Below, piece by piece: positions 9,382-51,549 of a stretch of DNA of 64,000 nucleotides (the first letter of the stretch is position 1; each line of letters begins with the position of its first letter). The translations under genes and the position numbers were made by a program. Location of the stretch: positions 1,054,001 to 1,118,000 of the forward strand of contig NW_026570261.1 of assembly GCF_019649055.1 (NCBI RefSeq). Reading direction: 5' to 3'. The notes under the pieces are model-generated. The model searched no databases. It saw nothing but the letters and a program-made list of their open reading frames with translations, and had not been told where the DNA came from. Origin of the DNA: Paramacrobiotus metropolitanus (lineage: Eukaryota; Tardigrada; Eutardigrada; Parachela; Macrobiotidae).

Positions 9382-12300
9382 ATGGGGCGCTACGCCTGTT
9401 TCCTGACGTTGTTGCTTGTCAGTTGTATGGGCATCGCTGTATTCTCACAAGAGGAAGGCCAAGAATTCCGTTATGCCGGCAGTGATGCCACGGTGTACGA
9501 GGAAGGCAACGGTGACGATGTGGTCCGTGCCGTTATGGAGAAACTGACCAGCGTCTGTAAGTGCTTCTTATCGCTGCCAGTGCGGTTTGAATTCTTAATA
9601 AAGCTTCTTATTTTTAGGCATCTTTAAAAAGGATAAACAAATGATACGGACCATCGCGCTAGCGGCGTCGAACGACGGGACCAAACCCGGAACATTCCGT
9701 CCAGGTTATCATGGTGGAATCTGGCAGGTGGGTTGTGGATAATTTCCGAACATTCAAGACCTCTCGAGTATTAAATTTTTGTGTTTTTTTTTTCCAGGTG
9801 GACGAAACAGTCTTTCAGTCCACGAAGGATTATTCCCTGAGTTATCTGTGGCGTCGCTTCAACAGCGCTTTCAACATCGACTGGCCCACGGTGCAGTGGC
9901 GCGATTTACGGAAGCCGTTGTATTCGGCGCTGGCGGCGCGTCTGGCTTTGGCCATGGTTGCTGATGAAAACAACAACGATATGTAAGAACCCACAACAGA
10001 TTGGTGGTATTCAGCCAATGATTTTAGAAAGTCAGAATTTTTGCCGATTATAGTGAGAATTCGCTGCCGTGGGATACGTACAGCCAAGCCAACATGTGGA
10101 TCCACGCGCTCGGTTTATCCGGTGACCTCGGCGCGTACCATCAGATGTACCAAAATGCTGTCCAACAGTTGCGCAATATTTCCCGTACGAGCGATCTTTT
10201 TCAGCCCCTGAGAACGAAATTTTGTTGTAAACTGACACTCGTTTTCTTATTTCCATATTATTATGAGCAGGTTGCAAATCCGTCGGTGCGGATATCGCTT
10301 TCGTTGTCGACGGATCCGGCAGTATCGGATCGGAAAACTTCCAGCACACCCTCAATTTTGTCAAAGAAGTGAGTTATCTCGGTGCTCAGCAATGGCACAA
10401 AATTAAAAAAGAATAATTAAACAGTATGTAAAAGGATAATAAAAGTTTAAGTAACATACATATTGCCACATTAATAATTATTCAGCTAAAAATATTTTTC
10501 ATACATGATAATATACGTATTACTCTAAAACCTAAATAGATATAATACCGTTGCCTTATTTCACAATATGGATAGACATTGTAAAGACACGCATAAAGGT
10601 CACTGAAGACAATCGAATTAAGAATTCGCCAAATTAATTCAGCATGAGCAGGACTACTTAAATTCCTAAGCTGAATACTGGAAATCGCACGCTACAGGTT
10701 ATTAGCCGACTGAACATCGGACCCCAAAGCAACCAGGTGGCTCTGGTCCAGTACTCTGACTATGCGCAGGCTGAATTTCATCTCAACACATATTCGACAA
10801 AAGAGCAGGTTGGTCCTTAGTAATTTCAAGTGGTACTAGAACAGGACGCCCACTCACTGGTTTGCCGTTGTAGGTCTTGCAGAAAATCTCATCGGGCATC
10901 TTTTATCAGGGCGGCGGAACTGCTACTGATTCCGCATTGCAGCAGTTGCACCAGAACGTCTTTACCGTCGCCAACGGTGCCCGTCCCCAAAAAGCCATAC
11001 CACAATTTGGTAAGGCGATAACCGAGTGTGTCTTCGTCGCTTCTGATTGGTAGATAATCGCGGTTTTTTTGTAGTTATAAATTTTTATTTATTTACGTAG
11101 TTATGTAATTGACTAATGGCGTCCTATGTTTACAGCGGTCCTTTTCACTGACGGCGCCGCCAATGATAACGTCGCGGCGCAAACGGAAGCCAGCCGGGTT
11201 CACAGCAAAAACATTACGCTGCTATCCGTCGGAATTGGCGGCTGGATTACCGAAACTGAATTAACTGGATACGCTTCAAATCCAAGTGCGACATTACTCA
11301 TCCGGCACATATTTTAGAAAATATAACGTCAACGCAAATAACCATTGCAGAATGCCAGAACACCTACCACCTTCAGGGATTTGCGGATATGGCGCAAACG
11401 TTTGCTTTCGAACTGGAACAGCGTAGCTGTGACGGTACGAGCATTAATACTGCTTAGAATGGCAAAGTACGGAGCAACAATTAAAAACCACCTTTTTCTG
11501 CGTAGGTCCTGGTTTCGTGGTCCCCTTGCCCGTAGACCCGCTAGTTCCGCCCACACCCATCACCATCGTTCTGCAGCCGGGTCAAGAACAGTACATCTGC
11601 TTCATAATCCCGGTTGTTAAAGGCGCGACCATCGTTCTCAACGGCACATCAGGGACCTTGCTCGCCTACATTTCCTTCTCCGTCACTAAGCCCAGTGCAG
11701 AGTTCTACGACCATAAGATGTCGGCGGCCGCTGGGCAAATCGTGAGTGCTTTTCAAAGAACCAGACATTCATTAGTCGCGAGCTCTTACGGACGTTCTGG
11801 GTGATAGGTAACCTTGTACCTGACTCCGGCGATTATCACGTCGTACGTTGGACCCCTCGTGCAAGACGCCCGTGTCTGTATCACTCTGGCGGTAGGCTCG
11901 AATGCCACTGCGACCGGGGAAACCCTGATCCATGAAGGCGCCGTGGACTGTGGTGCGGAAGAGCGCGACATGCGTGATAACGATGTCATGACCCTTACCA
12001 GCCCGGGTTTCAACAGCCTGACCAACCAGCCAGCCGGGTACCGCGGCGGCCTCAACTGCGTGTGGAAGATCAACACTCCGGCCTGGACGACCCTGGAGCT
12101 GACCGTCAACTACTTCAATCTCAACGAGAATTTCGACGAAGAGCCCGGCTGGAACTGCCACGAACAGGACAAACTGGTGGTGGAGACCCAGGGCGCGGTG
12201 CAGCCCGGCGGGTATCTGTGCGCCCAGCGACCCACTGGATGGAAGTTTCCGGTGACACGGGCGCTGAACACGACATTCATTACCTTCACGAGCCGGGTGG

Positions 12301-13569
12301 CGGCGCCGCGGGAGTTCGGGTTCAGTGTGACGGTGCGGGCGATCGGGCGGCATCGGTTGGACTGCAATATCACCGAGATCCAGCTGCAGATGCAGAAGAA
12401 GTTCCTGCCGCTGCAGATGCCGGTGCATCGGTATCATCTCCTGGACACTTCCTGTATGGCACGGGATGGCGGTGCCTTGATCCATATGAATACGGGCTAC
12501 GATCGATGCGGTACCATTCGAAGCGTATGTAACGAACACAGCCACCTTGAAAATAAAATTTTAGAAATGTGAGGAACCTTTTATCTAGAGCGTTCAATTT
12601 GCAGATGAACGACGAGAACTTGTACTTTACCAACCAAGCAAGTGCACCCACTTTCCCGTCCTGTTCCAGTGCCGGCGCCTGTATCGATGTGCCGCAAGTG
12701 GACATTCCGTTCCAGTGCAAACTGGAGCGCAAAGTTAAACCGTTGAGCGGAGTGTACAACATGCCGGAAGAGTTGTTCCCGCGGACCACGCTGGTGGACC
12801 GGCCGTTGCTAGAAGGCAACATTGACGTCGCTGTCAAGTATGAATCTGATGTTTTAATGGTTCGATTGAGTAAAATCGGTTGTTAAGATGTAGAAAAAAT
12901 CATGGGTTCTTTAAACAGATTGGATCTGGCTCGTGATATCGGCTTTTCTCCGGCCGAAATCGCTAACCCCAGTTTCCATGACTTTGACTTTCAAGGCAAC
13001 CGCGTGTATTTCCGCGTGGAGGGACGCCGTCGACGCGGCAGTGCGACGACGTTCGTCGTCCAGGCCGATCAGTGCTGGACAACGCCGACACCGGATAAGA
13101 ACAATCCGGAACGCTTCGACATTGTTCTTAACGGGTACGTTTGAAGAACCCAGGTTTTCAAAGCCCTGAAGTTCGCGCCGATTTTCGCATTTCAAAGAGA
13201 GCAGCGTGTGTTCAACGTGACGAAATGTGTATCTTGCTTTATAGTTGTCCAGTGTATCATCGAGACACAAATCTGGAATATAAGCGTCACGACGGCTTCG
13301 GTGATCATCAGGATGTCTTCAGCGTGAAGGCTGTCTACTTGAACGAGACCAGACCTCTGCAGCTGCATTTCCACTGCATTGCACGCGTGTGCAACGTCGG
13401 ACTGGACCATCATCTGTGCAATAAAGGATGCGTCGACCCGGTCAATCTGCCAGTACGCAATGCGGCGCCGGTGACGGAGAAGAGCGAAGCCGCCATGCAG
13501 CGTACCGCGCAGCTGGGCTACGTTAGCTTCGGCGGTAAACACGCCGTCCAAGGAGAACTTCGGAGCTGA
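9382..13569 (+). CDS. secreted lysozyme-like module / vWA / CUB / ZP domain protein
   Basis: I read fourteen exons with consistent phases: 9382-9556, 9618-9727, 9798-9982, 10054-10184, 10271-10368, 10698-10808, 10874-11009, 11136-11285, 11318-11434, 11506-11741, 11808-12524, 12605-12837, 12919-13134 and 13245-13569. The ATG at 9382 starts a hydrophobic signal peptide (ACFLTLLLVSCMGIAVFSQ). Exons 2-4 encode a module (RPGYHGGIWQVDETVF, RKPLYSALAARL, SLPWDTYSQA) that I know from invertebrate vWA proteins and that looks lysozyme-like. Exons 5-9 encode a vWA domain with a complete MIDAS: DGSGS, a TATDSA threonine, and FTDGAAND. Exon 11 carries a CUB domain (LTSPGFNSL, GLNCVWKINTPAW, DKLVV) and begins the ZP domain (YHLLDTSC, RCGTIRS). 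The last exons complete the ZP with paired Cys (FHCIARVCN, CNKGC). No transmembrane segment follows. A role in extracellular matrix or cuticle is inferred. A partial paralog lies at 59468-61404. Confidence 0.85.
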
Positions 13570-15096: not shown

Positions 15097-18000
15097 TCAT
15101 CCTCCGCCGGGTGTGTGTCCGGAGGCGCGCTCACATTCAGCTCTCCATGCGTAAATTGTTTTATTCGACACGCCCGTACATTTCAGAATGCGGGCGATGG
15201 CTACGGCTTCCTTGGGGTACATACGATACACCCCGACCACTTCTGCTTTCTCTTCGCGGGTAAACGTGCGCCCGCGACGATTACGTAAGCCTGGACGAAG
15301 CATCCCCTCCAGCACGCCAGGGCGGGGCTTAGTGCCCTTTTTGGGTCGCCCACGGGGGAACGGTTGGACTGGTTCCCCCTTCAATCTGGCGTCCTGCCGA
15401 CCCGCGGCCTTCACAAGATGCTGCAGCTGCAACGATAAACACGCCTATTAACCCGGTTCGGAGCGATAACGAGTCAGGGACGTACGCAGAGGCCCTCCAG
15501 CCGCTTCAGCTCCGCTTTGCAGTTGTACACATTCCCCTTCTCGCCCACCACCGTCACAACGTCGGTGTCCTCGTCGACGCGGACCGGGAAGTGGATTTTG
15601 ACCTGGAAGCGGTCTTCCAGCTGCTTCAAACTGGTGCGATTGTCGCCGATGATGCAGGCGTGGATGCGGCTGTCCAGGGGCACCTCCACGCGCGCCTTCC
15701 TTTTCTGCACAACGGACACCAATAAGAAGGTTAAACTAAGTTCGTATTTTTCTGTTATAGTTTAGCGTGTTTTTTTCTTCAAATTGGCTCTAAGCAGGGC
15801 GCAATCCGAGGGAAACCGAGAAACGGCTGAAAAAGGCGCCGATGGGGGAATCGAACCCCGGCTACGTCGTTAGATCCGCGTACGCAGTACCACTGCACCA
15901 CGGCGCAACACGTTGAAGTCCTTTGAAAGATTTTGTCGCTGTACGTGAGCCGCTTCTCCGCTCACATGGTGTATTGTGGCATTGATTTGATCAATAAAGT
16001 TATAGAGCTCGTATTAAATCTCGGAGAAAAAATCTGCCGATGGAGGGAATCGAACCCACACCCTCCATACTCTAGGGCCGAGAGAGGCACCACCAGGCTG
16101 TCGTTATAGCATAGAAATTGTATTGAAAGGTTTTATCGCACAGAGAGTCTGCTTCTCTGATACCAACGCCATTACATTCCGCAGCGCTGCTACCGACCAA
16201 GCATCGCTCCTTTCCTCACCTCGACCTCGATAAGGGTCTGGATGTGAGCGCGCGCCGCGTGCGCCTTCTCCTCTAGCCCGATAATGACGATCTTGTCGGC
16301 GTTCTCGGCGGCCGCATCGGCCCGTGGGAACTGCAGCTCCACCTGGAACTCGTCGCGCAGCCGCTTGACGTGGACGCGCTGGCCGAGCAGCTGGAAGTGC
16401 AGCTGGGGATCTACGCGCATCTCCACGCGATACTCTCGCCGCGCCTGCAGATGAAACAAGCACAAATCACTCCACCAGCACTAACGCCACCATACGCCTG
16501 CATACCCGCCCGTCCTTCAGTCGGTTCAGCTCCTTGACGCGCGCCGCCAGCTCCTCCTTGGCCGCGTCCACGTTGCGGCGCAGCCCGCGGATCGTGATGA
16601 CGCCGCTCCGCTCGGTCGCGTCGGGAATGTTGATGTGGACCTTGAAAGCATCCATCAGCTGGCGGATGTTGGTGCCCGCCTCCCCGATGATGCTGCTGTG
16701 GTAGTCGATCGGCACCGCCATCTCCTCCACCACCGGCTCCAGATCCTGTTCAGCAACCGCGCAGAAATGTACTTGAAGGCGTAAAATCCCATAGCTACCA
16801 GTACACATCAGCTGCCGCACAATCAATTTCAACAGGCTGTACCTCAAAATCAACCTCGGCAATCTTGTAGTCCGACTGGTAGGCACTGATGTCCAACGAA
16901 CAGTCGGAGAGCACTTGGATGCCGGTGGGGGTGACGCCCACGGTGCATTTGAGCAGCGCCACCAGTTCGCCTTCCTTCTCATACAGTACCGGAAATCCCA
17001 GCAGGATACCGTGATCCACGCACTCCTGGGCGGACCGGCGCGCCGTTTTCTCGTTGTCAAAGTGGCGCAGTGAAAAGCCGGACGTTCCATACTTCTCATA
17101 AGCTGCAGCGAGGAACTCTAAACAATCCATGCAATACAGTCAACAAACGCACACCGCATCAACCTTAACAAGTGCAGTACGGGAAGGCAAAACTGCAAAA
17201 GGCTCTTCTGCCAACAACTACCCATAAGTGGATGACAAATAACACGGTTATCGGGCAGTGGTTAAATAATTTGCACTGAGCGCGAAGCGCGGGGTGCTGC
17301 AATAAGCCTTCGTCAAGAGCATAAAATTTGACTGACGCCACGAAGAGCGTACGTCACGCTTTTCCAATTACACAATCCCAATACCTTTTTCCAGTGGTAT
17401 TGGCGCTCGCGCTCATGCAATAATGTGGTTCGCAACCACTGCTAGTATAATTTTTACAAGTTTGTATAAGCAGGATTATGGGAGTACGTACTGCAGAACA
17501 CATTGACAATGCACAGGACACGTGGAAGAGGGAACTACACTGCATATGTCGTACTCACTCTTCGCACTACGGGACACAGAGCGAGGTAGCGAAGCGGAGG
17601 GGTCGGTCCGGCGGTAGATGTTGGCGTCCGTGTCAAGATATTCGTAAGCTAGCCCTTCGCCGGTGCTGACCAACACCTCCAATTCAGCCACTTCGTTGAC
17701 GTGGAATTGGGTTTTTCTCTCGGGCAGCAGGTGCATGAGCTTGCAGTGGAAGCCCGCCACTATCGACTCCACTAACTGCTTGACTTGACCATACTACCAA
17801 GAGGCAAGAGCATAAGCATCATTATCAGCTGCCAATGTTCAACTACCCAGTACAACAGGCATACGCACATCCCATGGAACTCCGCCTTTAATCAGCCGTG
17901 TGTAGGCTTCCATAGCAGCGTGTGTCGCCAGCATGACGTCCGCCGGGCGTCCCCTCGCGGGATTGCCCTGCAGTTCAATCACAAATGTTAAAACGATGCT

Positions 18001-19008
18001 CTTAAAGCATCTCAAGTGGAATTGCCTATACAGCAAGCGATTGTTCAGGTTGGAAAAGGATGCGGGGTCACGAAGCAGCTATGACTACGATTACCAGAAT
18101 CGCGAAGCACCAGTTCACTGTGCGGTTAGATCGCAGGCCTAAATGTAATAGAACGTCCCGTACAAACGGAAAAGAAAACTCAAATTAGGTTTAGAAAAAG
18201 AATGGGGTGGGCTCGTGCAAAACAGTTCTCTGGCTGTTCTTGCAGCTTTTTACAACATGTCACGAAGTCGACACCCACTGAAAACCGAAACCGTAAAAAC
18301 GAACTATGAAATACTGCAACTCACCGTCGTAGCACCGACTACTTGTGAATACCCGACACAGGCGACGCATCCGTCAATGTGAACGGCCAGTTCGCTGGAG
18401 AGAACAAACACGGCTCAGTGATTAAGAACACGCGGATAAAAAGGAGCTCCATACATCTTGACAAGATCTCCGTGCTCCAGCAGACGGTCCTTGTCGCTCT
18501 TGAAGGGGGAAAAGTAGCAGACACAATGGTTGACGCTGATGCTGGTTGGAAACGCCACCCCTGTCAAATGTCCATACATGCTATTCCAAACCACAGCGCT
18601 GTGCGCTAAAACCCCACCTTTGTACAGATGCTTCTCTTCCTTGAAGACCAACGAGGTCTCCGCAATGATCATGCCATCAGCCGCTTCGCACATCTCCCGC
18701 ACGGACTGACTGGGCACGCATCTCTGCAGGACGCTTCCAACAACCTCTGCAATCAAAGAAAAATCTGGCGATTTTTGTACTTCTACTACGCATAAAGAAT
18801 GCAACGAGCTCAAAACAGGCCACGGAAATCCTAAGTCCGACTTGGTTATGATGTTTTCAGGACGCACACTGGACGGGGAAGGACCACTCGAGCAGCGCGC
18901 GTTAAATGCGTAGGGTGCAGACTTACTGGATGCGATTTGGCCTGCTGTTTGGTACTTGTGCTTTATACTCATATTCGTCACAATAGGGATGTCTGAGGAC
19001 GAGGACAT
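15097..19008 (-). CDS. EBP1/PA2G4-like creatinase fold joined to three vigilin-type KH domains and an AT-hook/HTH tail
   Basis: I read eleven exons: 19008-18927, 18746-18618, 18560-18455, 18394-18325, 17967-17869, 17793-17559, 17117-16807, 16745-16506, 16444-16220, 15704-15486 and 15426-15097. Every junction agrees in phase. Exons 1-7 give a PA2G4/EBP1-like protein: VAFPTSISVNHCVCYFSP, GDLVK, IELAVHIDG, VSTGEG, YEKEGELVALLKCTVG. The insert PA2G4 normally carries before its VSSGEG segment is missing. Exons 8-10 each encode one KH domain most like the last three of vigilin (VPIDYHSSIIGEAGTNIRQL; VDPQLHFQLLG; VPLDSRIHACIIGDNRTSLK). The KH13-like GxxG loop is altered (LLGQRVHV), which may weaken RNA binding. 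The last exon adds an AT-hook (RGRPKKG) and a helix-turn-helix-like segment (FTREEKAEVV...SNKTIYAW) reminiscent of transposases. Both parent families bind RNA or ribosomes. Whether one mRNA spans all exons is inference from phase; two adjacent gene remnants remain possible. Confidence 0.7.
15835..15906 (-). tRNA. tRNA-like gene in an intron (anticodon unclear)
   Basis: On the minus strand a box A-like TGGTGCAGTGGT and a box B GGTTCGATTCC are correctly spaced. The ends pair as GCGCCG/CGGCGC, the D stem as GCAG/CTGC, and a TTTTT Pol III terminator follows at once. The region between the D and T arms is 20 nt with only a TACG/CGTA stem, so the anticodon arm is not canonical and I do not assign an amino acid. 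It lies in the intron between exons 15704-15486 and 16444-16220 of the composite EBP1-KH gene, on the same strand. It may be a real tRNA, a pseudogene or a tRNA-derived SINE head. Confidence 0.5.
16034..16100 (-). ncRNA. second tRNA-like sequence with Pol III terminator
   Basis: The minus strand holds a T-arm with box B (GGGTTCGATTCCC), a 3' end ATCGGC like that of the sequence at 15835-15906, and then TTTTTT. The 5' half pairs poorly and box A is weak. ATGGAGGG and CCCTCCAT form an alternative hairpin around the T-loop. This is probably a decayed tRNA or tRNA-derived element. Confidence 0.35.
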
Positions 19009-21125: not shown

Positions 21126-21495
21126 CCGCAACGGGCCACGCGACCTTTTATCCCGTGAATATTGGACAAAATTTCAAAAAGAAAATCAGTTTTTCCACAA
21201 AATGCATTTTAAAAAGAGAGGATATCTGTGACACTGGTTTAGCGATCCAGTAGTACGAAATAACAAACAGCATTAAAAATCAAAGTGTGCCCCGCCCGAT
21301 GAGAGGAAGGCTCGTGATCAATGCCCGGCAAGGGGGACGCAGCGCTCGAACCTGAAAATGGTGCAAATCTATAGGGCGGGTACAGTAATCAAGACGGATT
21401 TGGTAAATAGTTGTACAGTATGTTGTAGTGTATGTACAGAACACATCAAAATTGCCAAAACAATTAACGTGTATTACGAATAATTTTTGGACCCC

Positions 21496-24400
21496 ATGAA
21501 CGTGCGGATGATTGATAGGGATTCGCTTAACCCTGTGGAGAAGTCGGCGATGCCTTTCCCGGAGGCAGCTTTACCACCAGCGGCATCGCCAGCGGGGACG
21601 GATACGGTTTTCCCGCAGCCACAAAATGCGGTTGCCGCATTGTGGGACTTTCACGAGATTCCCGACGAGATAATACTCTTTCTGAATTCATCCCAACCAG
21701 GTCAACCTTTGCCAAGGCTGACACCGGCGTTTGAGCAACAACAGCAGATACCGTTGATTCACAGCTCAATGGTGGCCGGTCCAGTACGGCAGCCCAATCC
21801 GGCAGCGAACGAAGAATCCAGTGCTATGAGTGCCGTCCAAGCCAATAAAGACAAGCGGGGACTCCTGAGCGGGCAAGGGATAAAAGGGGATGAAAGGATG
21901 AGCTACAGGGCCACAATCTTCAAAGCGATCATCGAATCGCCGCACAAACAGCTGACCTTAAGCGAGATCTACGCGCACATTCTCAACCAGTACCCGGTAT
22001 TGTGCGCCAATAGGAAAGGATGGCAGGTACAAGCGCCAATAGGAAAGGATGGCAGGTACAGGCTACGCTACCCGTTGCCAAAGGGGGTTTGGGTGTTCGA
22101 CGAGCGAAAGCATTGGCTCCTTCTGCCAATTTGGCTTCCATGTTTGCGACTCGTCCGTTAACATCTCAGATCTTTCAAGGCAGCAGCGAGCAGCTGGTCA
22201 GCGATGCGTGTGAACACTGGAAACTGGAGTCCGCATGTGATGAGTTACCGTTAGATTTGGCTCGTGTTCATCAGTGTGTATGGGATAATGCTGTCATACA
22301 GAAGGATGCTGATGTTTTGTGGAATAATGTTGGCGGCAATAAGCGAGCTGAAGCACGTATGAGAGCAGTTAGCACAAAATACGCCGGAGCCTGGCTCAAT
22401 GCTCTTCCCGCGAAAGTTTTCGGCAACTTCCTGGATGATCAGACTTTCCGCATTTCTGTTGGCCTGTGGCTTGGTGCTAAGATTGTGGAGCAGCATTCGT
22501 GTGCCAGATGTGGTAAAGAGGTCGCGGAAAACGGATACCATGGGCTAGCGTGCAAGAAGTGCATCGGGAGAAGGGAACGTCATAACGGCATTAACGATAT
22601 CATATTGCGAGCACTATGTAATGCCGGCATTGAGTCATACCCGGAGCCTATTGGCTTTTTGCGCGAAAACGGAAAACGCCCGGATGGAGCTACGCGTTGG
22701 AAGTGGTACCGCGGGCAGCCATTAGTATGGGACGTTACTTGCAGAGACACGATGGCGGATTCATACATCGACGCGACCTCAAAGTGTGCTGGCGCTGCCA
22801 TGAACTGGCATGCCGGGAGAAGATTGGAAAATACAAGTCGCTTACTGATCGCTGTAATTTTGTCGCCTTTGCATGTGAGACTTTTGGCACTTGGTGTGAG
22901 ACCGGCATTGTAACGTTAAAGGAGATCGGTAAGAAGTTGTTTTTAAGGACGGGTGAGAGTCGCTCTACTTGTTTTCTGTTTCAGCGTTTAAGTTTGGAGA
23001 TTATGCGTGGTAATGCAATGAGTGTATTGTGCACGGTCCCTTCCCATGTTAATTGGGACAAATTCTTCATTTGATCATGTTTGTTGGGCGAAGCTCGCCT
23101 TGCACATATTGAGAAATTAAAGCAAAAAAAAAAAAGTAAATTAATTATACGAGTAAATCGGCTTGCTTAGGTTCTAGAGTTATTTTTCGTTTTTGGTTTG
23201 CACTCAAAATGGGGATTGCCGCTTAGCTATCCAACTAGGTGTACAAGCTTGCCCGGTAATTTCTGAGAATCAATACAGCGATTTACACAAATTTGCGTGT
23301 TACGCCGAACCCCACAATACGGCGCGCCACGCCACACTGTTTAAACTCGTAACTTGCATTTGGCTGGCTGGTGGCTTGCTACACGTCATATAATTTTATG
23401 GGAATGATAGTAAGAAGAAAATTCCTGGCGGAAGATGGCTAGAAAATTATCGGTGCAGTAAGCGATAATCTAACTGCGGAGCGCATTCAGAAATTTTGAT
23501 AAACGTACCAGTGAATGATGGAGTAGTGAATTAAGTGGCCCTGATTATAAGCGCAAACTTCGCGCTAGCTGTACCTTTACGTAGGAAATTACTGGACAAG
23601 CTTGTAGTGCTGTCACCTTGTGATAAGAAAGTATATCTGCGTTCCGGAAATTAGTAACCAACGTTTTGCATTAATTATTGCATTATACAAAGTTATATAC
23701 AAGCCTGGTCCCGTGAAAACGATTGACTTTACAGAACACCGTCCGTAAAAACTTCAGCAAGAACCAGTGCTTCGTGAAAATTCCACGAGTATCCCCCCAA
23801 GGAAACGGTCAGTTAACAGCGAGAGAGCGTAAGTAAATTGTACATTTCGAATTTTCTGCCCGACAGATCGTGCCGGCCCGGCATGAATGCAGAAACTAAA
23901 CAACCAGTAATCAAACCGGTTTTCTACCAAAGTACCTATGCGTTGTTAATTATGTAGGCTATCAATGGACTATACATCCACATTTCATGGACTTGTACGA
24001 GGGCGGGGATTATCGCAGACGGCAATCCGCGAAGCTAGCCCCTCACCAGACTGGCGCTCCCAACATGGCGGCATTTCCCCCCAACATCTCGTGTGATAAC
24101 CCACGTTTCTCGCCTCTCTCTGACACCAGACCGTCGCGCACTGCGTGGCCATTGAGTCCCACTCAATCACGATGTTTTTCGACCACTTCCCATCCATCCA
24201 GTGAGATTATTCGGCCTTCTGGCACATGGTTTCCGCCGTGCGCCGCCACACTCGAGCACAAGGAAACAGCAACGTCGGCTGATAGCGCAAAGCTATCCGA
24301 ATCGCTACGTCCGGCCGATCGGCCTCCGGTCGAAGAATGCAGTCCGATACGTGTCGCCCCAGCCAGCAAATACAAGCAGGTGTCGCTGAGCTATGTGGCC

Positions 24401-25603
24401 ATGATTTTCAAAGCCATCAACGAATCACCGAAGAAGCAGTTGACCTTAAGCGAAATCTACGCACACATGCTCAAGCAGTATCCGGCGTTCTGTGCCAGCA
24501 CGAAAGGATGGCGGGTTATTGTGATGCATGGCAACGGGTGCCATTGCAATGTCCTGTTATATACGTATGTGGTATTTGTAATTGTATGTTTGTGTATTTA
24601 GTTGGTTAGTTATCAAAAGAGCACGACGCTCACGTTGTGACAGTAACGTAGGCGCTTGCTAAAGTTGTAAAGTGGTTTTCCGTTTCTTGGTATGCGCCCA
24701 AAACATGCGGGGTGCCGCTTAGTTGGCTAACTGGATATAGCGCTGCGTTAAGAAAAGTAAATTTAAATTCCGCAAGTAGTACCCATTGTTTTGCGCTTAT
24801 TATTGCATTAATATTATTACAAGCCTGTACCGTAAAAATGACTGTCTTACAGACCACTGTCCGTTACAATCTCAGCGCGACCCGACACATCGTTAGAACT
24901 CCTAGAATCTCTGGCGCGAAACAAGGAAAAGGTCAGTTAACAGCGCGAGAGCACCAGTAAATTGTACATCTCCAATTTTCAGCACCATAGCTTTTGCGAA
25001 TTAGTACAGCGAGTCAGCGAATACAGAACCGAGTATCCAACCGGTTTGCGCCGAAGCACCTATGCGTACTTTTTTGTAGTCTGGCTCTGGACTATCGCTT
25101 TGGACTGTCAGGACATGTACAAAGACAGGGATTATAACATACGGCTAGACGGGAAGCCATCAACTAACCTGGTTAGTGCTCCTAACATGGCGTCATTTCC
25201 TCCCAGCATCTCATGTAGTAACCCACATTTCTCGCTGCAACACCACCACATTTCCCAATACAGCACCTGGCCACAGGGCATCGAGTGGAGAGAGAGCCAC
25301 ACGCCGTCGGCAAGGCTTCCGCCCACTTGCCAACCATCCACAAATGTTCTTCGGCATTCCGGCGCATCGTTTCCGCCGGGCGCCACCGCGGCTCCGCATC
25401 AGATGAGGCTACCATCACCATGGTTTCCTGATTGGGTGGCACGGTACTGCACGCCCCTCCCTGGCTATACGGCCACGAATGCATGCAGTTCCGGGAATAT
25501 CGTGCCGGGTTGGACTGGATTGCCCGCCGGAGCGCCGCCCGCGGGATGCTTTCCCCGTCGCTATCCCGGATGTCGATGGCCGCTGAACGTTACCAGAATC
25601 TAA
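21496..25603 (+). CDS. forkhead gene with two winged-helix domains fused through one exon (copies A and B)
   Basis: Inferred exons are 21496-22026, 23735-23807, 23958-about 24518, 24853-24931 and 25080-25603. Exon 1 encodes an N-terminal tail and the first half of a forkhead domain (IFKAIIESPHKQLTLSEIYA), split after KGWQ. Exon 2 supplies the recognition helix and strand region (NTVRKNFSKNQCFVKIPR). Exon 3 completes the domain (GYQWTIHPHFMDLYEGGDYR) and then continues in the same open frame into the first half of another forkhead domain (SLSYVAMIFKAINESPKKQ). This joins to exon 24853 (TTVRYNLS) and the last exon (WLWTIALDCQDMYKDRDYN). The donor after the second half-domain (TGGCGG|GTTATT) is weaker than the TGGCAG|GTA of other copies. 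Intron 1 contains a LINE. Forkhead proteins bind DNA as transcription factors; the HNLS core is altered in both halves, so binding is uncertain. The subclass is not assigned. Confidence 0.65.
22004..22060 (+). repeat. 28-bp tandem duplication at a LINE 5' junction
   Basis: The 28 bases ending GGATGGCAGGTACA occur at 22004-22031 and again at 22033-22060, immediately before LINE sequence. The first copy spans the exon 1 splice donor of forkhead copy A, so a second donor is created. Confidence 0.85.
22061..23135 (+). mobile_element. 5'-truncated RLE-type LINE in forkhead intron 1
   Basis: The translation starts at ATLPVAKGGLGVRRAKAL, inside the C-terminal part of the same retrotransposon family as 33190-35845. 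It carries a Cys-His knuckle (CARCGKEVAENGYHGLAC), the endonuclease motif RPDGA...WDVTCRDT, and the tail NAMSVLCTVPSHVNWDKFFI. One frameshift lies near 22815. A 12-base poly(A) closes the element at 23124-23135, after which sequence homologous to the forkhead intron of copy D resumes. This is a dead insertion. Confidence 0.85.
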
Positions 25604-26315
25604 ACGTGCTGTGCGGCTTAATCCCTCAACATGGTTACTAACGGACAGAATCGGAGTTAAGGTTTTTTTTGTGTAAATAACAAGTCAGGGTTCGTTAGTC
25701 ATGTTTTCAAACTCCGATACATGGATTTAAGTATAGAAGTATGTGAAATCTGAAACTGAGAATGGGCCGAGTGGAAATATTGGATTAACGTGTATAAAAC
25801 TTTGTAATAAAAGGAAACCCACAGTTTTTTTTGTGTATGAACACTTGTTATCTGTCAGACAAGTAAAAATTACCTGATTGAGAAATAACGCTGCACTGGC
25901 GACCTATCTGAAGAGTAGCGTGAAGTCTTCCAGCAAGCTGTGAATATTTCACCATTCGTAGCGTGATTTCAAATTTGCTCGGACCAAATCCACTCTTTCT
26001 TACTGGTTTGACAAACGAATTTACAAATATATTTCTTTGCCAAAACTCCGAACATCGAGTAAACAAAAGCAACTAACAGGGAAAATTAACGTCTTATCTA
26101 AGACTATGCAAATGTACTGTGTACATATATCACAAGATTTTTGTTTCCCGGACATTGTGATACTGGTTTTTTTCGGCGAGGATCCAACGAAAGTATCTGT
26201 ACATACTATGATACATACTATGATACTATGATACTCGTATCAGTTCGCCTTCTGTAAGGAACGTGATTGAAATACCACATTTCTACATGTTCTGCGATTA
26301 TAATTATTTATTTTT
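25604..26315. other. intergenic, no gene seen
   Basis: This AT-rich spacer between forkhead units holds a short run of GATACATACTAT repeats near 26205-26235. No coding sequence was recognised. Confidence 0.45.
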
Positions 26316-26970
26316 ACATTTATTGAACAATTGTTTCGACCTCCGGAAGCGGTGATTAGGAAAATACTGTAATTAAAATCAAACGAGCCAGGGGCTTAGT
26401 TAGAGCCACGTGCGGCAAACGCAGCGAGGGCAGAAAGTCAGGCGCTTATTGTTCACGTATCATGTGACGTATGAACGGGCAGCATGTGATGGCACCCGCA
26501 ATTGATTAGCAACAGCGGCGGCCGCATTGATCTCGGTGACAACCGCCGCACCTCCATTGGGCTTGAAGTTTAAAACTCCGCCCATGCTATGTAGAGCAAA
26601 GACAATGCCGGGGAAATGGGATGCCGCAAGTTTTCTGTCAGGCAACAAGCAGCTCGTACTCAGAACTGTTAACGCTTGGTAGCACCTTGTTGGTGTGCTT
26701 GAACATATCGTAGCCGACGCAGTTGACAGTGTACAGATATTTTCTCTGATTTGTTTTCTATCTCTTTTTCATCATATTTGGAGAAACCATGGATGAACAA
26801 TCTCTAGGCGCGGTGATTTGCCGAGCACTCTTGAGTCTTGATGATCGCGAATCTATCAGCTCCATCGTGCAGAATTATAACGATGATGTTGGCGATGGGC
26901 GAAACTACGATGAAAGAGTCCAACCATCACTGGAACTGGACAGACAGTGGTAAAGGGTTTCCTGATAAGG
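26316..26970 (+). repeat. duplicated upstream block of the forkhead unit (copy 2)
   Basis: This is a close copy of 19788-20420, placed before forkhead copy C. It includes an intact small ORF (26789-26953). Confidence 0.75.
26789..26953 (+). CDS. small ORF of 54 codons, unknown function
   Basis: ACCATGG at the start is a strong Kozak context. The product is acidic (starts MDEQSLGAVICRALLSLDD, ends ERVQPSLELDRQW). The duplicated copy at 20237 keeps the start and, after a 5-base deletion, the C-terminal coding sequence in another frame, so the family resemblance extends over the whole ORF. It could also be a first exon of something larger, or noncoding. No family was recognised. Confidence 0.35.
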   Translation: MDEQSLGAVICRALLSLDDRESISSIVQNYNDDVGDGRNYDERVQPSLELDRQW

Positions 26971-27496
26971 GTTGTTACAGTTGCAGTGCGTTATACACCG
27001 GTGTACCTTCGGTGCGGTTTTTTACGAGAAATGTTTTCGCAATGGTGTCTCTAGTCGCTAACAATAAGTGTTTTCTTGGTTGCGAAATTCGTAAAAGGCA
27101 ACCGATATTTTTAAAATCAGCCATTTTCCTTGAGACTGTACAATTTATCCTAGTTCAGCATTAAACAGCCAATTACTTCGCAGTAAACATATCACCATTT
27201 GTATACTGTATCTGCCCGATAGATTTGCACCACAGAGTCGGGCATACGGAAAACTGCAAGCCCAGTATACAGACTGTGCTACGTGCATACATAATTTCAA
27301 GTGATTTTCGCTGGTCATTACTTGCTACCGGCATTCTACGGCAAGGCAGCACCGGACCTGATAGTTTTGCAAATCTATCGGGCGGGTACGTTAATCAACA
27401 CGGGTGTAGTAAATAGTTGTATGTTGCTGTGTATGTACAGAACACATCAAAATCGCCATAATGAATCGCGAGTATAACGAACAATATTTGTGCCCC
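26971..27496. other. upstream region of forkhead copy C
   Basis: The last 150 bp (GTATGTACAGAACACATCAAAA and neighbours) are nearly identical to the sequence just before forkhead copy A (about 21400-21490), as expected for a duplicated promoter. The rest shows no coding signal. Confidence 0.5.
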
Positions 27497-28696
27497 ATGA
27501 ACGTGTCGATGATTGCTAGGGCTTCGCTTAAGCCTGTGGAGAAGCTAGCGAAGCCTTTCCCGGGAGCAGTTTTACCAGCAGTGACACCGCCATCGCGGAC
27601 GGATAAGATTTTCCCGCTGCCACAAAATGCGGATTCTGCACTGTGGGACTTTCACGAGATTCCCGACGAAACGACGTTCTTTTCAAATGCATCCTTACCG
27701 GGCCATCCTTTGCCGGAGTTGACACCGGCGTTTGGGCAAGAACAGCAGATACCGTTGACTCACAGCGCAATGGTGACCGGTTCAGTACGGCCGCCGAATC
27801 TGGCAGCGAGCGAAGAATCCAGTGCTATGAGTGTCGTCCAAGCCACCAAGGACAAGAGCGGCTCGCTGAGCTGGCAAGGAATAAAAGGGGATAAAAGGCT
27901 GACTTACCGGGCCATGATCTTCAAAGCGATCATCGAATCACCACAGAAACAGCTGACCTTTGGCGAGATCTACGCTCACATTCTCAAGCAGTATCCGGCA
28001 CTCTGCGCCAGTATAAAAGTATGGCAAGCACAAGTGACTGTACCAACTTGCTTATGTTCTGCCGTTGTTTTTCTATCTTTGGTCTGCGCTTAGAATATGC
28101 GGGTGGCAGGGGTACCGCTTAGTAACCTAACTGGATGTAATGCTGTAATAAACCAGTAAATTTTAATTCCGGAAATTATTACCCATTGGTTTATATTATA
28201 TATATATAATACATAAGCCTAGTCCCGTGAAAATGATTGTTTTTACAGAGCTGTGTTGGTTCAAGCCTCAGCAGGAACCGATGCTTCGTCAAAACTCAAC
28301 AAAAAATCTCCCCCCAAGGAACGGGCCAGTTTAAAGCAAGAAAGTGTACGTAAATTGTTCATTGCGGATTTTCTGCTCAGATCTTGGGCAGGAATGCAGC
28401 GACTAAAAAACCAGTAATCAAACCGTTTTGCACCAAAGTACCAATGTATTGTTAATTCTGTAGGTTGTTTATGGACTATACATCCAAACTACCTGGACCT
28501 GTACGAGGATCGAGATTATCGCCGACGGCGACCCGCGAAGCGGTCCCCTCACCACGCCAGCGTTCCCAACGTGGCGACAGTTCCCCCAACTTCTGCTGAC
28601 CCATATTTCTCGCTGCTGTCTAACACCACGGCGCAGAGCACCGAAAGGCCAACGAGCCACACGCCACCTTCCGTCCAATTATCAACCATCCAGTGA
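27497..28696 (+). pseudogene. forkhead copy C (decayed)
   Basis: Exon 1 (27497-28026) is intact and encodes the N-terminal tail and first half-domain (IFKAIIESPQKQLTFGEIYA). The donor after the first half-domain reads CAA|GCACAA instead of CAG|GTA. The middle exon around 28251-28330 is unrecognisable in frame: only fragments such as ACCGATGCTTCGTCAAAAC survive. The last exon from 28464 is open (GCLWTIHPNYLDLYEDRDYR) but stops at 28694-28696, earlier than in copies B and D. Loss of the recognition-helix exon makes a working forkhead domain unlikely. Confidence 0.75.
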
Positions 28697-31260
28697 CCTT
28701 CGTCAGCACTCCGGCGCATTGTTCCTGCCTCAGCGCTTTATGACTAAGGTACCGGCGCTTCTTAAAAGTGTGACAAGGTACTACACGCCCGCCCTGGCTC
28801 CACGGCCACGAATGCGGGCAATTCTGGGAATGCCGTGCCGGGTTGGACTGGATTGCCCACCGTAGCGCCGTCCGCGGGATATTTTCCCGGCGCTTTCCCG
28901 GATGTCGATGGTAGCGGATGGACGCCGAACATTGTTATCCAGAATTAAGTATTTGTAAAATCTGAAATTGCGAAAGAACTCAGCGGAAAAATTGAATGAA
29001 CTTGTATAAAATTTGTATAAAACTCACAGGTGTATTAAGCCTACATTTGTTTTTTTCTTTATAGAAAACTCTTGCATGGAACACAGATAAAAATTAGTTA
29101 GCCGAGTGAGAAATCAACAACGCAGTGCAAACGACGTACGACATACAGTCTTCCAAAAAGAACTGATTGTTTTCACAAGCCGTAACGTGATTTGCTGAGC
29201 CACCAAAATAGCGTTTTTTTATTGGCTTTGAAACAAGAATTCACAAATATATCTGTTTGCCATAACCTTCAAATTGATAAAACTGGAGTCAAAAAAACTA
29301 GAGAAAACTGGTTAAAAAGGGAGTGTAACTTCTGCATTTCACTAGCGATACTTTTCACTTTCCAAGAAATCTACCACAACATATTGGAACTGGGCAACGT
29401 GTTACAGCCCGACCCGGGTTCCTGCGTGCCGTGATGCTGTATTGCCGCAACAATCAGATTTCCGTATGGGGCCCCGATCTAGAATTTGTCAGACAGCGTA
29501 AGGCTACTGATGGTTTATAATGGTGAGTGACCTTTACTGACTAACAACTACAGGAACGACGCTAACCCAATCTTTCTGCTAACGCTGACCTTTTTGTAAA
29601 ATCATTCAGACTAATACTGCAGCAACATCAAGGCTAAGAAAACATCCCAGAGAACACTTTCCAAGACCAGATATTCCAGAGTTGCTAGCCATGCAAGATG
29701 ACATTAGTTCTTCTCCCTCAAGCACTTCAACAGTGATTTCTGATCCAAAATATGAAAGATGAGAGAACATCCTTTCAACTCAAAAGCACTCATTGGCAAA
29801 CCATTAGTCAACATTTTATTGATTGTTTTATGAGAGATCAAGCACATTACTAATTGGCTGACAATTTCTGGCCACTCCCTTCCGTTGCAAACCACATCAT
29901 AGTATGACTGTCCATACATAATGTACTTCTACCTGTCGTACTCGTGACAAATTGGTTAATCTGTTAAAGGTCACTGTTGACACGGATCTTACTCCGGTCT
30001 GCCACAACGTCCGCTTCAAGGTTTTGCAGTATATTCGCAACGATAAACTCACGGAGGAGGACTACAGTGCCACGACATCATTGTCCGAGCCCGTAATCTC
30101 TGGGGAAAGGTGGATCGGGATCACTTGACATGCCCGCTTGGCGCGCATTTATTTGTGAACTGTACACAGGAAAGGTAGTTTTTTCTCAGATACTGTTGAA
30201 CCAAGCGAGACCGACACTGCATTATATTCGCGGCGTTCCTGCACTTCGTTGCCGAGAATCATTAGCAAAATTCGTAAATACCTCGTTGAAACGGAAGGGT
30301 CGACAGTGTATGATGACGCAATGTACACCGAACCAAGATTCCATCGTGGTCGTTTGCCATCACGGACGAACAGTTTTATCCGAATCCAGTGCAGAAAGCT
30401 CGGTAAAACTGCATCTGACATATTATTCAGCGCCGAATGATTCTTGCTAGAAAAAGTATCGCACTTTCCTCAACCAGTTACAACAACTGCAGCCAAATTA
30501 GGCGGGCGAAAGTCTAAAAAGCGACATCCAAAATTGTCCGCGTCGAACCGGCGTTGCATTCCGGTCACATGCGATCACTTAGGTAACTTTTTCGGTTTTC
30601 ATATTCGGAAATCAGACAAGCTTTCCTAATAATAAGGAAAAATGTTGTTTGGTTCCTCATTATGTTTTGGTTCTTCAGGCAATACTGCCATAATTATGTT
30701 AATTTATGTAATACACTCTTTCATTCTATCATCGCGCGGTGAATTCATTATTCATGTATACTACGGCTTCGGTGATTCTCGTGGGTGTTTGACGATCAAT
30801 CATTGTATATGTCACGTAACTCATGTTACCCTTCAGTTAGGTACTCGTAGCGTGTCACTAACGTTTCATTCTTTGGTTAACATTCATAAAATTAAAGCAG
30901 ATTCCGCCCACAATTAATTAAGTCATTTTTGTGTATTTGGCATTTTATGTATGCTGTAACCAAAAGTAAGTACAAAGCAACATTTCAACACGTTCCGAGA
31001 TAAGACGCAAGTGACTCATTCCAGTCAGGCAGTGATGAGGCGCGCTACACTCTACAAAAGCGCGGTTAGTAAGTAGAGTAGGAGTTGACCGCTGTCAATT
31101 TTTCCCGATGGCGACAAACCTCACTTATCAGTAATGGTGCCAATGTGCAGTTAGCATTAAAGTCAATCAATCGCAGTAGCTTGTTGTACCTGTAAATATC
31201 AAAACTGCCATAATAAACCGCTCGTATTACCAGTAATATTTATCCCACACGAACGCGTCG
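28697..31260. other. long spacer with weak coding remnants
   Basis: The first 250 bp continue the noncoding 3' homology of the forkhead unit (for example GGCTCCACGGCCACGAATGC). Short protein-like stretches occur (plus strand near 29638-29757 and 29971-30128; minus strand 29919-29704), but none resembles a family I know. A repeat at about 30985-31035 (TTTCAACACGTTCCGAGAT) has a diverged copy at about 35958-36015. Confidence 0.4.
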
Positions 31261-32550
31261 ATGATGGATGGAAATTCTCTTATATCTGCGGGAAATCTGA
31301 CGATGACGTTCCCGGAAGTAGCTTTTCCAGAAGCGACATCGCCATCGGGGACGGTTACAATTTTCCCGCTCCCACAAAATGCGCTTACCGTATTGTGGGA
31401 CTATCACGAGATTCCCAAGGGGATGACGTTTTCTCCGAATCCATCTCTACCGGGTCAAAATTTGCCGGAGCTGACACCGCCGTTTGGACAAGAATACCAG
31501 GTATCGTTGACTCACAACGCAATGGTGGCTGGTTCAGCAAGGCCGCCCCATATGGCAGCGAACGAAGTATCCAGTGCGATGAGTGTCAACCCATCCAACA
31601 AAGGCAAGCGGTGCCCGCTGAGCTACCGGGCCATGATCTTCAAAGCGATCATCGAATCACCACAGAAACAGCTGACCTTTAGCGAGATCTACGCGCACAT
31701 GCTCAGGCAGTACCCGGCATTGTGCGCCAGCAGAAAAGGATGGCAGGTACTATTAGATGTATCGGCCTGCTTAAGTCCTAGAGTTATTTCTCGTTTTTGA
31801 TTTGCGCTCAAAATATGCGGATTGACGCTCGGTTACCTAACTCATAACTGGATGTAGTGCTGCAATAAAAAAGTAAATTTAAATTCCGTAATTAAGAGTA
31901 AAACCCATTGCTTTGCATCTATTATTGCAATAAATGCAAGCTAAGGCTGCTGCCGTAAAAATAATTCTTTTACAGAACAGTGTCCGTCACAATCTCAGCT
32001 TGCACCCATGCTTCGTTAGAACTCCACGAATCTCCGACAAAGGAAGCGGTCAGTCGGCGCGAGAAAGCATAAATAACTTTTATATTTCCGAATTGCCTCT
32101 ACAGATCTACCTCTATAGATCTTGAGCATGGCTATCGCGACTAAAACACCGAGAAGTCCGAACCAATTTGCACGAAAGTACTTACGGAACGTTGAATTTG
32201 TAGGCTGCCCATGGGCTATCGATCCAGACTACCTGGACATATACAAGGACGGTGATTATCATAAGCCGCGACGCATAAAGCGAGCTAATAACCGGAAAAG
32301 CGCTCCCAGCATGGCGCCAGTTCCACCCAGCATCTACTGTGACGCACCTGGCGCCGCGGCGGCGGCACATCGGCGCTTTATGATGAGACTGCCAGCGTTC
32401 CCAGATAATGGGACACCGTACTGCACGCCCAGTCCTGGCTATACGGCCACGAATGCAGGCAGTTTCGGAATTCCCGTGCCGGGATGGACTGCATTGCCAG
32501 TCGGAGCGACGTCCGCGGGGGTTATCACGCGTCGCTTTCCCGGACGTTGA
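31261..32550 (+). CDS. forkhead transcription factor, copy D (best preserved)
   Basis: Exons are 31261-31746, 31976-32048 and 32204-32550. The domain assembles as IFKAIIESPQKQLTFSEIYA (exon 1), then NSVRHNLSLHPCFVRTPRIS (exon 2, a near-canonical recognition helix), then CPWAIDPDYLDIYKDGDY (exon 3). Splice sites are standard: TGGCAG|GTACTA, TTTTACAG|AAC, G|GTCAGT, TTTGTAG|GC. The region N-terminal to the domain is rich in Pro, Ser and Thr, and the C-terminal tail is Pro/Gly/Ala-rich with repeats of PGYTATNAG type shared with other copies. Expected role: sequence-specific DNA binding in the nucleus. The ATG used by copies A and C is mutated here, so the start moves to 31261. Confidence 0.8.
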
Positions 32551-33189
32551 TGGTAGCTGCTGGACGCCGAACATTACCGGAATCTAAACGTGCTTTGCGA
32601 CTCGATTTAACAAAGTGGTTACTAACTGATATAATCGGACGATAAGGCTTTATGTGAGTAAATAGACAAGTGCAGATACCACTGACCTTGTGTTCAAACA
32701 GTGTAACAATCAACGAAGAATAATTATGTAAAAAAACAATGCAGATTCTGCACTTCGAAATGGGCTGAGCGGAAAAACTGAATTCACTTGTATCAACCTT
32801 TGTACTAAACTCACAGTTGAATTGGGCACAGTTGTTTTTTGTTTATGAACACCGTTGTACATGGCACACAAATAAAAGTCAGCCGATTTTGAAATGATTG
32901 ACGCTGTGCTAACGACCTAACCCACAGTCTTCCAAGCAAGGTTTGATAGACCCTAAGAGCATCGTGCAGCGTCCATGCTGCACGTTGGCCTTACACACTT
33001 CGCAGATTCGCAGTTTATCTTGAATCGTCGTTCCGGTTTTTTGGCGAGAAAGACGAAAGGGCACCTCTCTTTATGGCACTGGTAATTTTAATTAAAACTT
33101 TGCCAAATCAGAAATAACTCTGCCGTTCGTAACCGATCACGATCCCCGTGCGAATAATACGTTTTTAACCTCAAAATTCCCCGGAAGCC
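32551..33189. other. intergenic, no gene seen
   Basis: The sequence resembles the 3' flanks of other forkhead copies (CTGAATTCACTTGTATCAACC region, compare 28990) and then runs into the 5' end of a LINE. No gene was recognised. Confidence 0.45.
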
Positions 33190-51506: not shown

Positions 51507-51549
51507 AAGATTCGAGAACTTTTTACAATTCTTATCGAAAAAACGGAGC

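Follow-up and report, generated by a model that had tools for sequence, protein, structure and literature searches.

A likely chimeric gene joining EBP1/PA2G4, vigilin-type KH domains and an AT-hook/HTH-like tail in the tardigrade Paramacrobiotus metropolitanus

On contig C41 of the tardigrade Paramacrobiotus metropolitanus, within a 64,000-nucleotide stretch of DNA (the window), exons resembling EBP1/PA2G4, exons resembling the last KH domains of vigilin and an exon with an AT-hook/helix-turn-helix (HTH)-like tail follow one another on the same strand. This arrangement raises the question of whether they form one gene and, if so, how it arose and what its product might do. Chimeric genes are of a known kind; here, likely intermediates coexist in one genome. 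Our analysis indicates that this locus is likely to be a real chimeric protein-coding gene, with the structure and origin proposed below.

Exon structure of the predicted fused gene

The minus strand from 19008 to 15097 was modeled as 11 phase-consistent exons encoding a 669-residue protein with no inner stop codon. All 10 introns have GT-AG borders and the phases match at all 10 junctions. The modeled protein is 100% identical to the NCBI predicted product of LOC129590662 (P0001), and it runs from an EBP1/PA2G4 body at the N terminus through three KH domains like those at the C terminus of vigilin to a final AT-hook/HTH-like tail, in agreement with the single phase-consistent frame of the original prediction. 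The features are as follows, in window coordinates:

18927..19008, minus strand: exon 1, PA2G4 part, start codon at 19008 (splice model, identical to P0001)
18618..18746, minus strand: exon 2, PA2G4 part, 129 nt, the ordinary PA2G4 length (splice model and comparison)
18455..18560, minus strand: exon 3, PA2G4 part, 106 nt, the ordinary PA2G4 length (splice model and comparison)
18325..18394, minus strand: exon 4, PA2G4 part, 70 nt, the ordinary PA2G4 length (splice model and comparison)
17869..17967, minus strand: exon 5, PA2G4 part, 99 nt versus 93 in ordinary PA2G4 (splice model and comparison)
17559..17793, minus strand: exon 6, PA2G4 part, 235 nt (splice model and comparison)
16843..17117, minus strand: exon 7, end of the PA2G4 part, 275 nt, with outgoing phase 0 (splice model and comparison)
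16746..16842, minus strand: intron 7, 97 bp, at the junction of PA2G4 and vigilin parts, GT-AG, phase 0 (splice model and alignment)
16506..16745, minus strand: exon 8, vigilin-type KH12, GXXG loop GEAG (splice model, Pfam, PDB chains, DNA match)
16220..16444, minus strand: exon 9, vigilin-type KH13, GXXG loop without its last glycine (splice model, PDB chains, DNA match)
15486..15704, minus strand: exon 10, vigilin-type KH14, loop GDNR versus GGKG in vigilin (splice model, PDB chains, DNA match)
15097..15426, minus strand: exon 11 entire, including the stop codon (splice model, identical to P0001)
15385..15426, minus strand: opening stretch of exon 11, LQHLVKAAGRQDAR, with a probable origin in the last vigilin exon (by-eye resemblance to vigilin AAGRQDAR)
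15334..15354, minus strand: AT-hook-like motif RGRPKKG in exon 11 (read from sequence; alignment of tails)
15109..15276, minus strand: helix-turn-helix-like region in exon 11 (HTH_Tnp_1 below cut-off; tail profile versus PDB 2jn6)

We take the vigilin-type domains to be numbers 12–14 of vigilin and RGRPKKG to be what is called an AT-hook. Exon 6 corresponds to two ordinary PA2G4 exons (143 and 158 nt) without their intron and without roughly 20–30 codons.

The seven PA2G4-like and three KH exons predicted earlier were recovered, but the end of the seventh was not where it had been placed. Two splice models showed that donors at 16807 and 16843 both keep the frame, so the predicted agreement in frame across the PA2G4-KH boundary stands; the donor proposed for it (16807, GAT/GTGTAC) gives way to that at 16843 (GAG/GTACAG), which is the one used in the NCBI protein. 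Closed at 16843, the 275-nt exon 7 has the length and outgoing phase found in a paralogue on contig C177 and in ordinary PA2G4. Because exon 7 ends there, intron 7 measures 97 bp (16842–16746) rather than 61; on the PA2G4 side, up to 16790, it can be aligned to the C177 paralogue.

A Pfam search of the joined product, proposed earlier as a check, bore out the domain order with one Peptidase_M24 match (E 1.6e-10) and three KH_1 stretches (E 4.1e-30), HTH_Tnp_1 being sub-threshold. Among PDB sequences, the body matched PA2G4 chains (best 6swa_t, E 5.1e-63), and the vigilin chains 2ctk, 2ctl and 2ctm were matched in that order along the protein.

A second predicted fused copy and the probable joining of the parts

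We identified a second fusion, P0002 (606 residues), on contig C177, with the same order of parts and no KH12 exon; Pfam detects two KH_1 stretches in it and three in P0001. The two proteins are 58% identical over 71% of the query by BLASTP and 71% identical over 587 aligned codons. Common to both are a deletion in the KH13 loop, the KH14 loop GDNR and a deletion in the EBP1 body, and neither coding model contains a stop or a frameshift. The presence of this diverged copy elsewhere in the genome speaks for a real joining over an annotation mistake. In C177 genomic DNA, stop codons lie between the PA2G4 and KH parts, and the frame is not continuous without splicing. Upstream of its KH13 exon there are five open codons without an ATG and then a stop, and the first methionine lies inside the KH domain; the frame of this exon therefore depends on upstream exons. 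Between the C41 and C177 copies, dN/dS (NG86, 500 bootstraps, ranges in brackets) was 0.28 (0.20–0.38) for the PA2G4 part, 0.40 (0.26–0.67) for KH13+14 and 0.42 (0.25–0.71) for the tail. Because the C177 KH13 exon has no upstream start codon while the two copies differ at a dN/dS of about 0.3–0.4, the parts of the fusion are very probably spliced together in one gene. On these sequence features, we regard a joined, spliced gene as highly likely.

Alternatively, the joint model could be an annotation chimera of two adjacent same-strand genes, in which a PA2G4 paralogue would read through exon 7 to a stop at 16797–16795 and a KH-AT-hook/HTH gene would start either within exon 8 or upstream of it. 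In both copies the frame does stay open beyond the exon 7 donor until a stop is reached, but the ordinary PA2G4 donor is preserved at the end of that exon. Only in C41 could the KH part have its own start codon, an open frame and ATGs lying upstream of the KH12 exon, whereas the C177 frame is closed as described and its KH13-14 and tail nonetheless show dN/dS below 1. Certain other PA2G4 entries (P0013, P0017) resemble annotation read-throughs, which would fit the two-gene reading. Every tail that we found, however, belongs to a PA2G4 paralogue, and two of these paralogues have no intervening KH domains; we consider the two-gene explanation very unlikely. Separate PA2G4 and vigilin genes, one part of the refuting condition named earlier, are both present in the genome (contigs C43 and C119, respectively), but the fused paralogue argues for joining.

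The earlier statement that no protein of this order has been described agrees with the sequence and literature searches made here. With 8000 candidates scored per protein search, the fusion was not found in other species: among 25 + 2 protein hits, both Pfam domains occurred only in the two P. metropolitanus proteins, and no KH domain stood beside Peptidase_M24 among the best 120 of 465 matches. Among the papers listed by our literature searches, which for one of them were 10 of 91, none dealt with an EBP1-vigilin-AT-hook/HTH fusion, and the main text of PMC11191345 contains no mention of "2G4" or "vigilin"; that paper gives DRR144969 and DRR146886 as genome and RNA-seq reads. Some other PA2G4 entries, such as P0013 and P0017, carry further Pfam domains and look like annotation read-throughs.

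Relatives of the parts and a proposed stepwise origin

The body of the fusion resembles EBP1/PA2G4 in its MetAP-like region, which spans residues 1–332, and in exons of 129, 106, 70 and 275 nt, lengths also found in this genome's ordinary PA2G4. It differs in having no lysine-rich tail, a stretch deleted from the latter half of the body and several altered ribosome contacts. Two more PA2G4 paralogues, P0026 and P0027, combine a PA2G4 body with the RGRPKK/HTH-like tail as the fusions do; unlike the fusions, they have no KH insertion and still hold the stretch deleted from the fusion bodies. Of five proteins scored against TIGR00495 (NCBIfam, EBP1/PA2G4; curated cut-off 430.05 bits), only the ordinary PA2G4 (P0003) passed, with 493 bits; P0001 (251.5), P0002 (252.4), P0026 (328.5) and P0027 (381.9) all fell below. 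In the PA2G4 tree, the four tailed paralogues lie on one side of a branch (72/73; 66% of bootstraps), and the two fusion bodies sit at the end of a fairly long branch (0.55).

The KH12-KH14 DNA is 78–82% similar to the vigilin gene of the same genome, introns included. Retroposition of the vigilin part was rejected because the match includes these introns. The match ends at 15424 in C41; in C177 it extends 72 bases into the corresponding last exon, to vigilin 363590. The fusion shares with vigilin/HDLBP/Scp160/DDP1 the last KH domains in the same order and alignable exons. It differs in its three KH domains (vigilin has fourteen), two of them with broken GXXG loops, and in another tail after GRQDA. 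The C119 vigilin gene gave 12 KH_1 matches within about 4 kb; neither P0001 (3) nor P0002 (2) has the array of about 14 KH domains typical of vigilin. In the KH14 tree, the two fusions are joined at 67/38, the C9 and C238 vigilin copies are set apart by a branch of 97/98 and the three C48 copies group with one another (98/99). We considered these secondary vigilin copies as a source of the KH block; in this tree, which carries one flagged long branch, the forks near the fusions are open. The synonymous distance between the fusions (0.42) is larger than that of either from vigilin (0.30 and 0.27).

Two unrelated parents are still present, introns are kept and the frame is joined in the predicted transcript, as would be expected of an exon-shuffling chimera. 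We consider a stepwise origin likely. A PA2G4 paralogue would have gained the AT-hook/HTH-like tail at its lysine-rich end; a piece of vigilin DNA, made up of the KH12-KH14 exons with the introns belonging to them and the beginning of the last exon, would then have entered between body and tail by way of a phase-0 intron; and the chimera would have duplicated, after which the C177 copy would have lost KH12. The proposal that the tail was gained once and the vigilin segment inserted once relies mostly on shared sequence features because tree support is low (66% of bootstraps; 67/38). The surviving set consists of PA2G4 in its ordinary form, PA2G4 with the tail, the tailed form with three KH domains, the same minus one KH, and vigilin. 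As these likely intermediates survive in one genome, the fusion steps and the possible change of role are directly testable, and P. metropolitanus can be cultured.

Predicted function

The original prediction considered a fused translation regulator plausible; the EBP1 part of such a protein would bind the ribosome and its KH domains would bind mRNA. Both parents do act on RNA or ribosomes, according to passages of PMC7005732 and PMC9117268. As described in a passage of PMC7005732, EBP1 contacts ES27L through its lysine-rich C-terminal motif, and the ribosome contacts named there include Arg243, Arg263, Ser267 and Arg271. The lysine-rich motif is present in P0003 (NKKKKAKAKK) and absent from P0001 and P0002. 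At positions 243, 263, 267 and 271, one alignment with gaps nearby gives D, K, A, E in P0001, E, K, A, S in P0002 and R, R, S, A in P0003. Position 66 is Glu or a gap in the fusions and position 258 is Pro, whereas K20, F64, K65, K72 and L257 are retained in both, and position 263 has Lys for Arg. P0003 retains R243, R263, S267, K65 and K66 and differs at 271 (Ala) and 19 (Asn). The GXXG loop of C41 KH12 is intact (GEAG), but neither copy has an unbroken loop in KH13 or KH14, and C177 has no KH12; in addition, a passage of PMC9117268 reports reduced binding of the five C-terminal KH domains of human HDLBP to one mRNA region. The translation-regulator idea is weakened because both fusions lack the lysine cluster and several ribosome contacts and have broken KH13/KH14 loops, and we now regard it as unlikely.

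These same losses of EBP1 functional residues and of two KH loops, together with the fairly long branch to the fusion bodies, might suggest a decaying chimera without function. In comparison with vigilin, the C41 KH domains give dN/dS values whose ranges extend to just above 1 (KH12, 0.48 [0.23–1.09]; KH13+14, 0.60 [0.35–1.05]), but that of C177 KH13+14 is 0.37 (0.22–0.63), and the fusion PA2G4 parts versus ordinary PA2G4 gave 0.36 and 0.31. Decay appears very improbable given coding models free of stops and frameshifts, between-copy ratios whose upper limits are 0.71 or less and 15 tail positions invariant across four paralogues.

We prefer a DNA-tethered nuclear paralogue over a translation regulator. 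The tail would tether the protein to nuclear DNA, the EBP1-fold body would be a docking site for partner proteins, corepressors for example, and the degenerate KH block would serve chiefly as a spacer for protein interaction or as a weak binder of nucleic acid and not in ribosome placement. Such a DNA-tethered nuclear function is predicted as a possibility that falls somewhat short of even. More tentatively still, a lineage-specific family may have turned ribosome-associated EBP1 into DNA-tethered nuclear proteins via the tail, with the disarmed KH block as a protein-interaction module in two members.

All four tails found belong to PA2G4 paralogues, and in their alignment RGRPKK is invariant in 4/4. 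The RGRPKKG motif predicted for the final exon was read directly from the sequence; its predicted helix-turn-helix was matched below threshold, with HTH_Tnp_1 scoring 19.1 bits on P0001 (Pfam cut-off 24.1), matching only 2/4 tails even at E 1 and giving no match for P0002 or its tail in the Pfam search. A profile of the four tails matches PDB 2jn6 (E 1e-5), and we infer that the tail is AT-hook/HTH-like and a putative DNA binder. No source of the tail outside PA2G4 paralogues was found by Pfam or by own-genome searches with the P0001, P0026 and P0027 tails; such single-tail searches are weak, the P0001 tail not recovering that of P0027 and the P0027 tail recovering that of P0026 only. Two further matches in the own-genome tail search (E 0.57 and 4.2) were judged to be chance. 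When the genome was searched with the HTH_Tnp_1 family, all 15 hits were weak, the best having E 0.09, and one was over the cut-off counting neighbours.

Structure of the fusion gene and its relatives

The genome searched comprised 169.8 Mb in 533 contigs, with the window on contig C41. Our splice model places the fusion gene at 19008–15097 on the minus strand, with 11 exons predicted to be spliced in vivo, GT-AG borders and phase agreement at all 10 junctions, and a translation of 669 residues with 0 internal stops. The protein is identical throughout to the NCBI prediction LOC129590662 of the tardigrade Paramacrobiotus metropolitanus, annotated as 'uncharacterized protein', which bears out the eleven phase-consistent exons of the original prediction. 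Exon lengths divide this protein (P0001) as follows:

Residues 1–332, minus strand, PA2G4/EBP1 part
Residues 333–560, minus strand, three KH domains
Residues 561–669, minus strand, tail

A domain search of the joined product, proposed originally as a check, agreed with this composition: Pfam returned Peptidase_M24 and three KH_1 stretches, and PDB sequences gave PA2G4 chains as well as vigilin chains 2ctk, 2ctl and 2ctm in this order. We take the KH domains to be numbers 12–14, from their position as the last three of vigilin. At the PA2G4-KH boundary the in-frame joining held, but the proposed 61-bp intron did not. Both candidate donors preserve the frame in the splice models; because the donor at 16843 is the one used in the NCBI protein and ends a 275-nt exon that recurs, equally long and in the same phase, in both the ordinary PA2G4 on C43 and the C177 paralogue, the junction intron is 97 bp.

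The search for separate parent genes found both, on C43 and C119, and the genome also holds a second fusion and two tailed PA2G4 paralogues:

C43:827329–830092, ordinary PA2G4 (P0003), nine exons
C119, vigilin gene, 12 KH_1 matches within about 4 kb
C177:136782–140597, second fusion (P0002), 606 residues, in the order PA2G4 body, KH13, KH14, tail
C43:1079889–1082852, PA2G4 with a related tail and without KH (P0026), ten-exon model 100% identical to NCBI
C48, PA2G4 with a related tail and without KH (P0027), tail match at 248189–248446

The NCBIfam EBP1 model (cut-off 430) scored 493 for P0003, 382 for P0027, 328 for P0026 and 252 for the fusions; by this cut-off the tailed genes are EBP1 relatives outside the family. 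Nor are the fusions vigilins, P0001 having three KH domains and P0002 two. No other protein with PA2G4 and KH parts appeared among the protein matches, including the 120 listed of 465 matches in one search (8000 candidates scored per search), and the fusion was not described in the open-licence literature searched (paper listings, and one paper's main text by a few words); the original statement that no described protein was known with this order therefore stands within these searches. Chimeric genes are already known as a kind, of which the PA2G4-vigilin-tail chimera is a new instance, of interest because likely intermediates survive.

Origin and constraint of the KH segment and tail

Vigilin DNA matches the C41 fusion at 16752–16162 (78%) and 15713–15424 (81%) and the C177 fusion at 139647–140294 (82%), introns included in each case. 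The vigilin introns within the matched DNA indicate that the segment arrived by DNA duplication and rule out retroposition as its source. On C177 the match extends into the last vigilin exon, up to GRQDA, and on C41 it ends at the start of the last exon, beyond which the likeness is in protein only. The 5' junction of the segment is intronic; on the evidence of C177, its 3' junction falls within an exon. Apart from the fusion genes, nine partial vigilin C-terminal KH blocks (loci L028–L036) occur elsewhere in the genome:

C48, at 271k, 297k, 397k and 416k
C9, at 376k, 418k and 425k
C238, at 35k and 95k

Simple misassembly is spoken against by the presence of diverged copies on two contigs, the C41 and C177 DNA being 74–80% alike in most of the aligned pieces and 91% alike in one of 74 bases. 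The C177 copy lacks KH12, and its frame survives since the exon borders adjoining the lost domain are in phase 0. Upstream of its KH13 exon the frame stays open for five codons, with no ATG among them, and the first Met lies inside the KH domain; a separate KH gene on C177 would thus be without a start, so that the reading frame of KH block and tail relies on the upstream exons. This argument fails for C41 alone, because ATGs stand in the open frame upstream of KH12. Between the two copies, dN/dS (NG86; ranges from 500 bootstraps in brackets) was 0.28 (0.20–0.38) for the PA2G4 part, 0.40 (0.26–0.67) for KH13+14 and 0.42 (0.25–0.71) for the tail. Against vigilin it was 0.37 (0.22–0.63) for C177 KH13+14, 0.60 (0.35–1.05) for C41 KH13+14 and 0.48 (0.23–1.09) for C41 KH12, and the ranges of the C41 comparisons make constraint on its KH block less sure.

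The tail appears to have arisen separately from the KH block. In an alignment of the four tails, RGRPKK is invariant, as are nine further positions, and P0026 retains a short exon (NKKNG) which, by eye, may derive from the lysine-rich tail. Genome searches with the tails of P0001, P0026 and P0027, which are weak single-sequence searches, gave no convincing copy beyond the four tailed genes. A profile of the four tails matched 2jn6 (Protein Cgl2762; E 1e-5), presumably a transposase-type HTH, and 8vd6 (CAP repeat; E 1.4e-4) in the PDB. The Pfam transposase HTH model scored 19.1 bits on P0001, below its cut-off of 24.1, and matched two of the four tails at E 1; no match for P0002 appears in the Pfam search.

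Three features common to both fusions suggest one ancestral KH insertion: the loss of one residue from the KH13 GXXG loop, a KH14 loop reading GDNR against GGKG in vigilin, and an EBP1-body deletion that also removed an intron. The KH13+14 synonymous distance is 0.42 between the fusions and 0.30 and 0.27 from fusion to vigilin, values that would allow, though not prove, a short shared branch of the fusions if vigilin evolves slowly; the KH14 tree pairs the fusions at only 67/38. In a midpoint-rooted PA2G4 tree the five P. metropolitanus genes cluster (100/99) apart from two sequences with the source tag 'lgn', and a branch supported at 72/73, in 66% of bootstraps, has the four tailed genes together on one side. 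The likely order is that a PA2G4 paralogue gained the tail, the KH segment was inserted into this tailed PA2G4, the chimera was duplicated and the C177 copy lost KH12.

Residue changes and possible function

According to PMC7005732, human Ebp1 sits at the tunnel exit of the ribosome and makes its contacts by Arg243, Arg263, Ser267, Arg271, loop 62–72 and a C-terminal lysine motif. P0003 retains R243, R263, S267, K65, K66 and the lysine tail, departing at 271 (A) and 19 (N). In the fusions position 243 is D/E, 263 is K, 267 is A, 271 is E/S, 66 is E or a gap, 258 is P and 19 is H/D, and both lack the lysine cluster; K20, F64, K65, K72 and L257 are retained, as is K22 in P0002. For KH domains, PMC11997328 reports no detectable RNA binding by the KHNYN domain without a GXXG loop and abolished binding on GDDG mutation in other KH domains. 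A broken loop does not prove lost binding, because a GDDG change confined to one IMP1 KH domain out of two lowered affinity only about twofold (PMC11997328).

Given the residue losses, and the chromatin roles of vigilin (PMC10011833) and nuclear repressor roles of EBP1 with Sin3A/HDAC2 (PMC8080562), we infer a DNA-tethered nuclear protein. The tail would bind DNA, the EBP1-fold body would be a docking surface for putative partners, and the KH block would act as a spacer or interaction surface. The analysis shows the gene structure, the paralogues and the residue losses, from which splicing in vivo, localisation, DNA binding and partners are predicted.

Other features of the window

Intron 9 of the fusion gene contains a repeat of about 147 bases (15966–15820, minus strand) with a tRNA-like look, in which we take GGTTCGATTCC to be B-box-like. 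Across the window neither ARAGORN nor Rfam (at the gathering threshold) detected a tRNA. At least 54 other stretches match the repeat at 94–98% identity, one of them partial (413 candidates, 40 scored), and some are paired about 363 bases apart. The remaining features are:

11808–12569, plus strand, CUB-domain match (E 8.6e-4, below cut-off)
21484–31800, plus strand, local array of four open frames, each with a partial forkhead domain, about its first half (Pfam E 1.6e-7 to 8.6e-11)
33158–34717, plus strand, reverse transcriptase frame
39969–40570, second minisatellite array, 104-base unit, by eye the reverse complement of the 105-base unit
46245–48048, minisatellite, 105-base unit, 17 copies, 96% matches
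51502–54521, plus strand, LINE-like reverse transcriptase and endonuclease domain in two overlapping frames
60676–61479, plus strand, CUB-domain match (E 2.8e-5, above cut-off)

In the larger minisatellite array (46245–48048), the minus strand has an open frame of 610 codons. The two CUB-match frames resemble each other, with nearly 50 kb between them.
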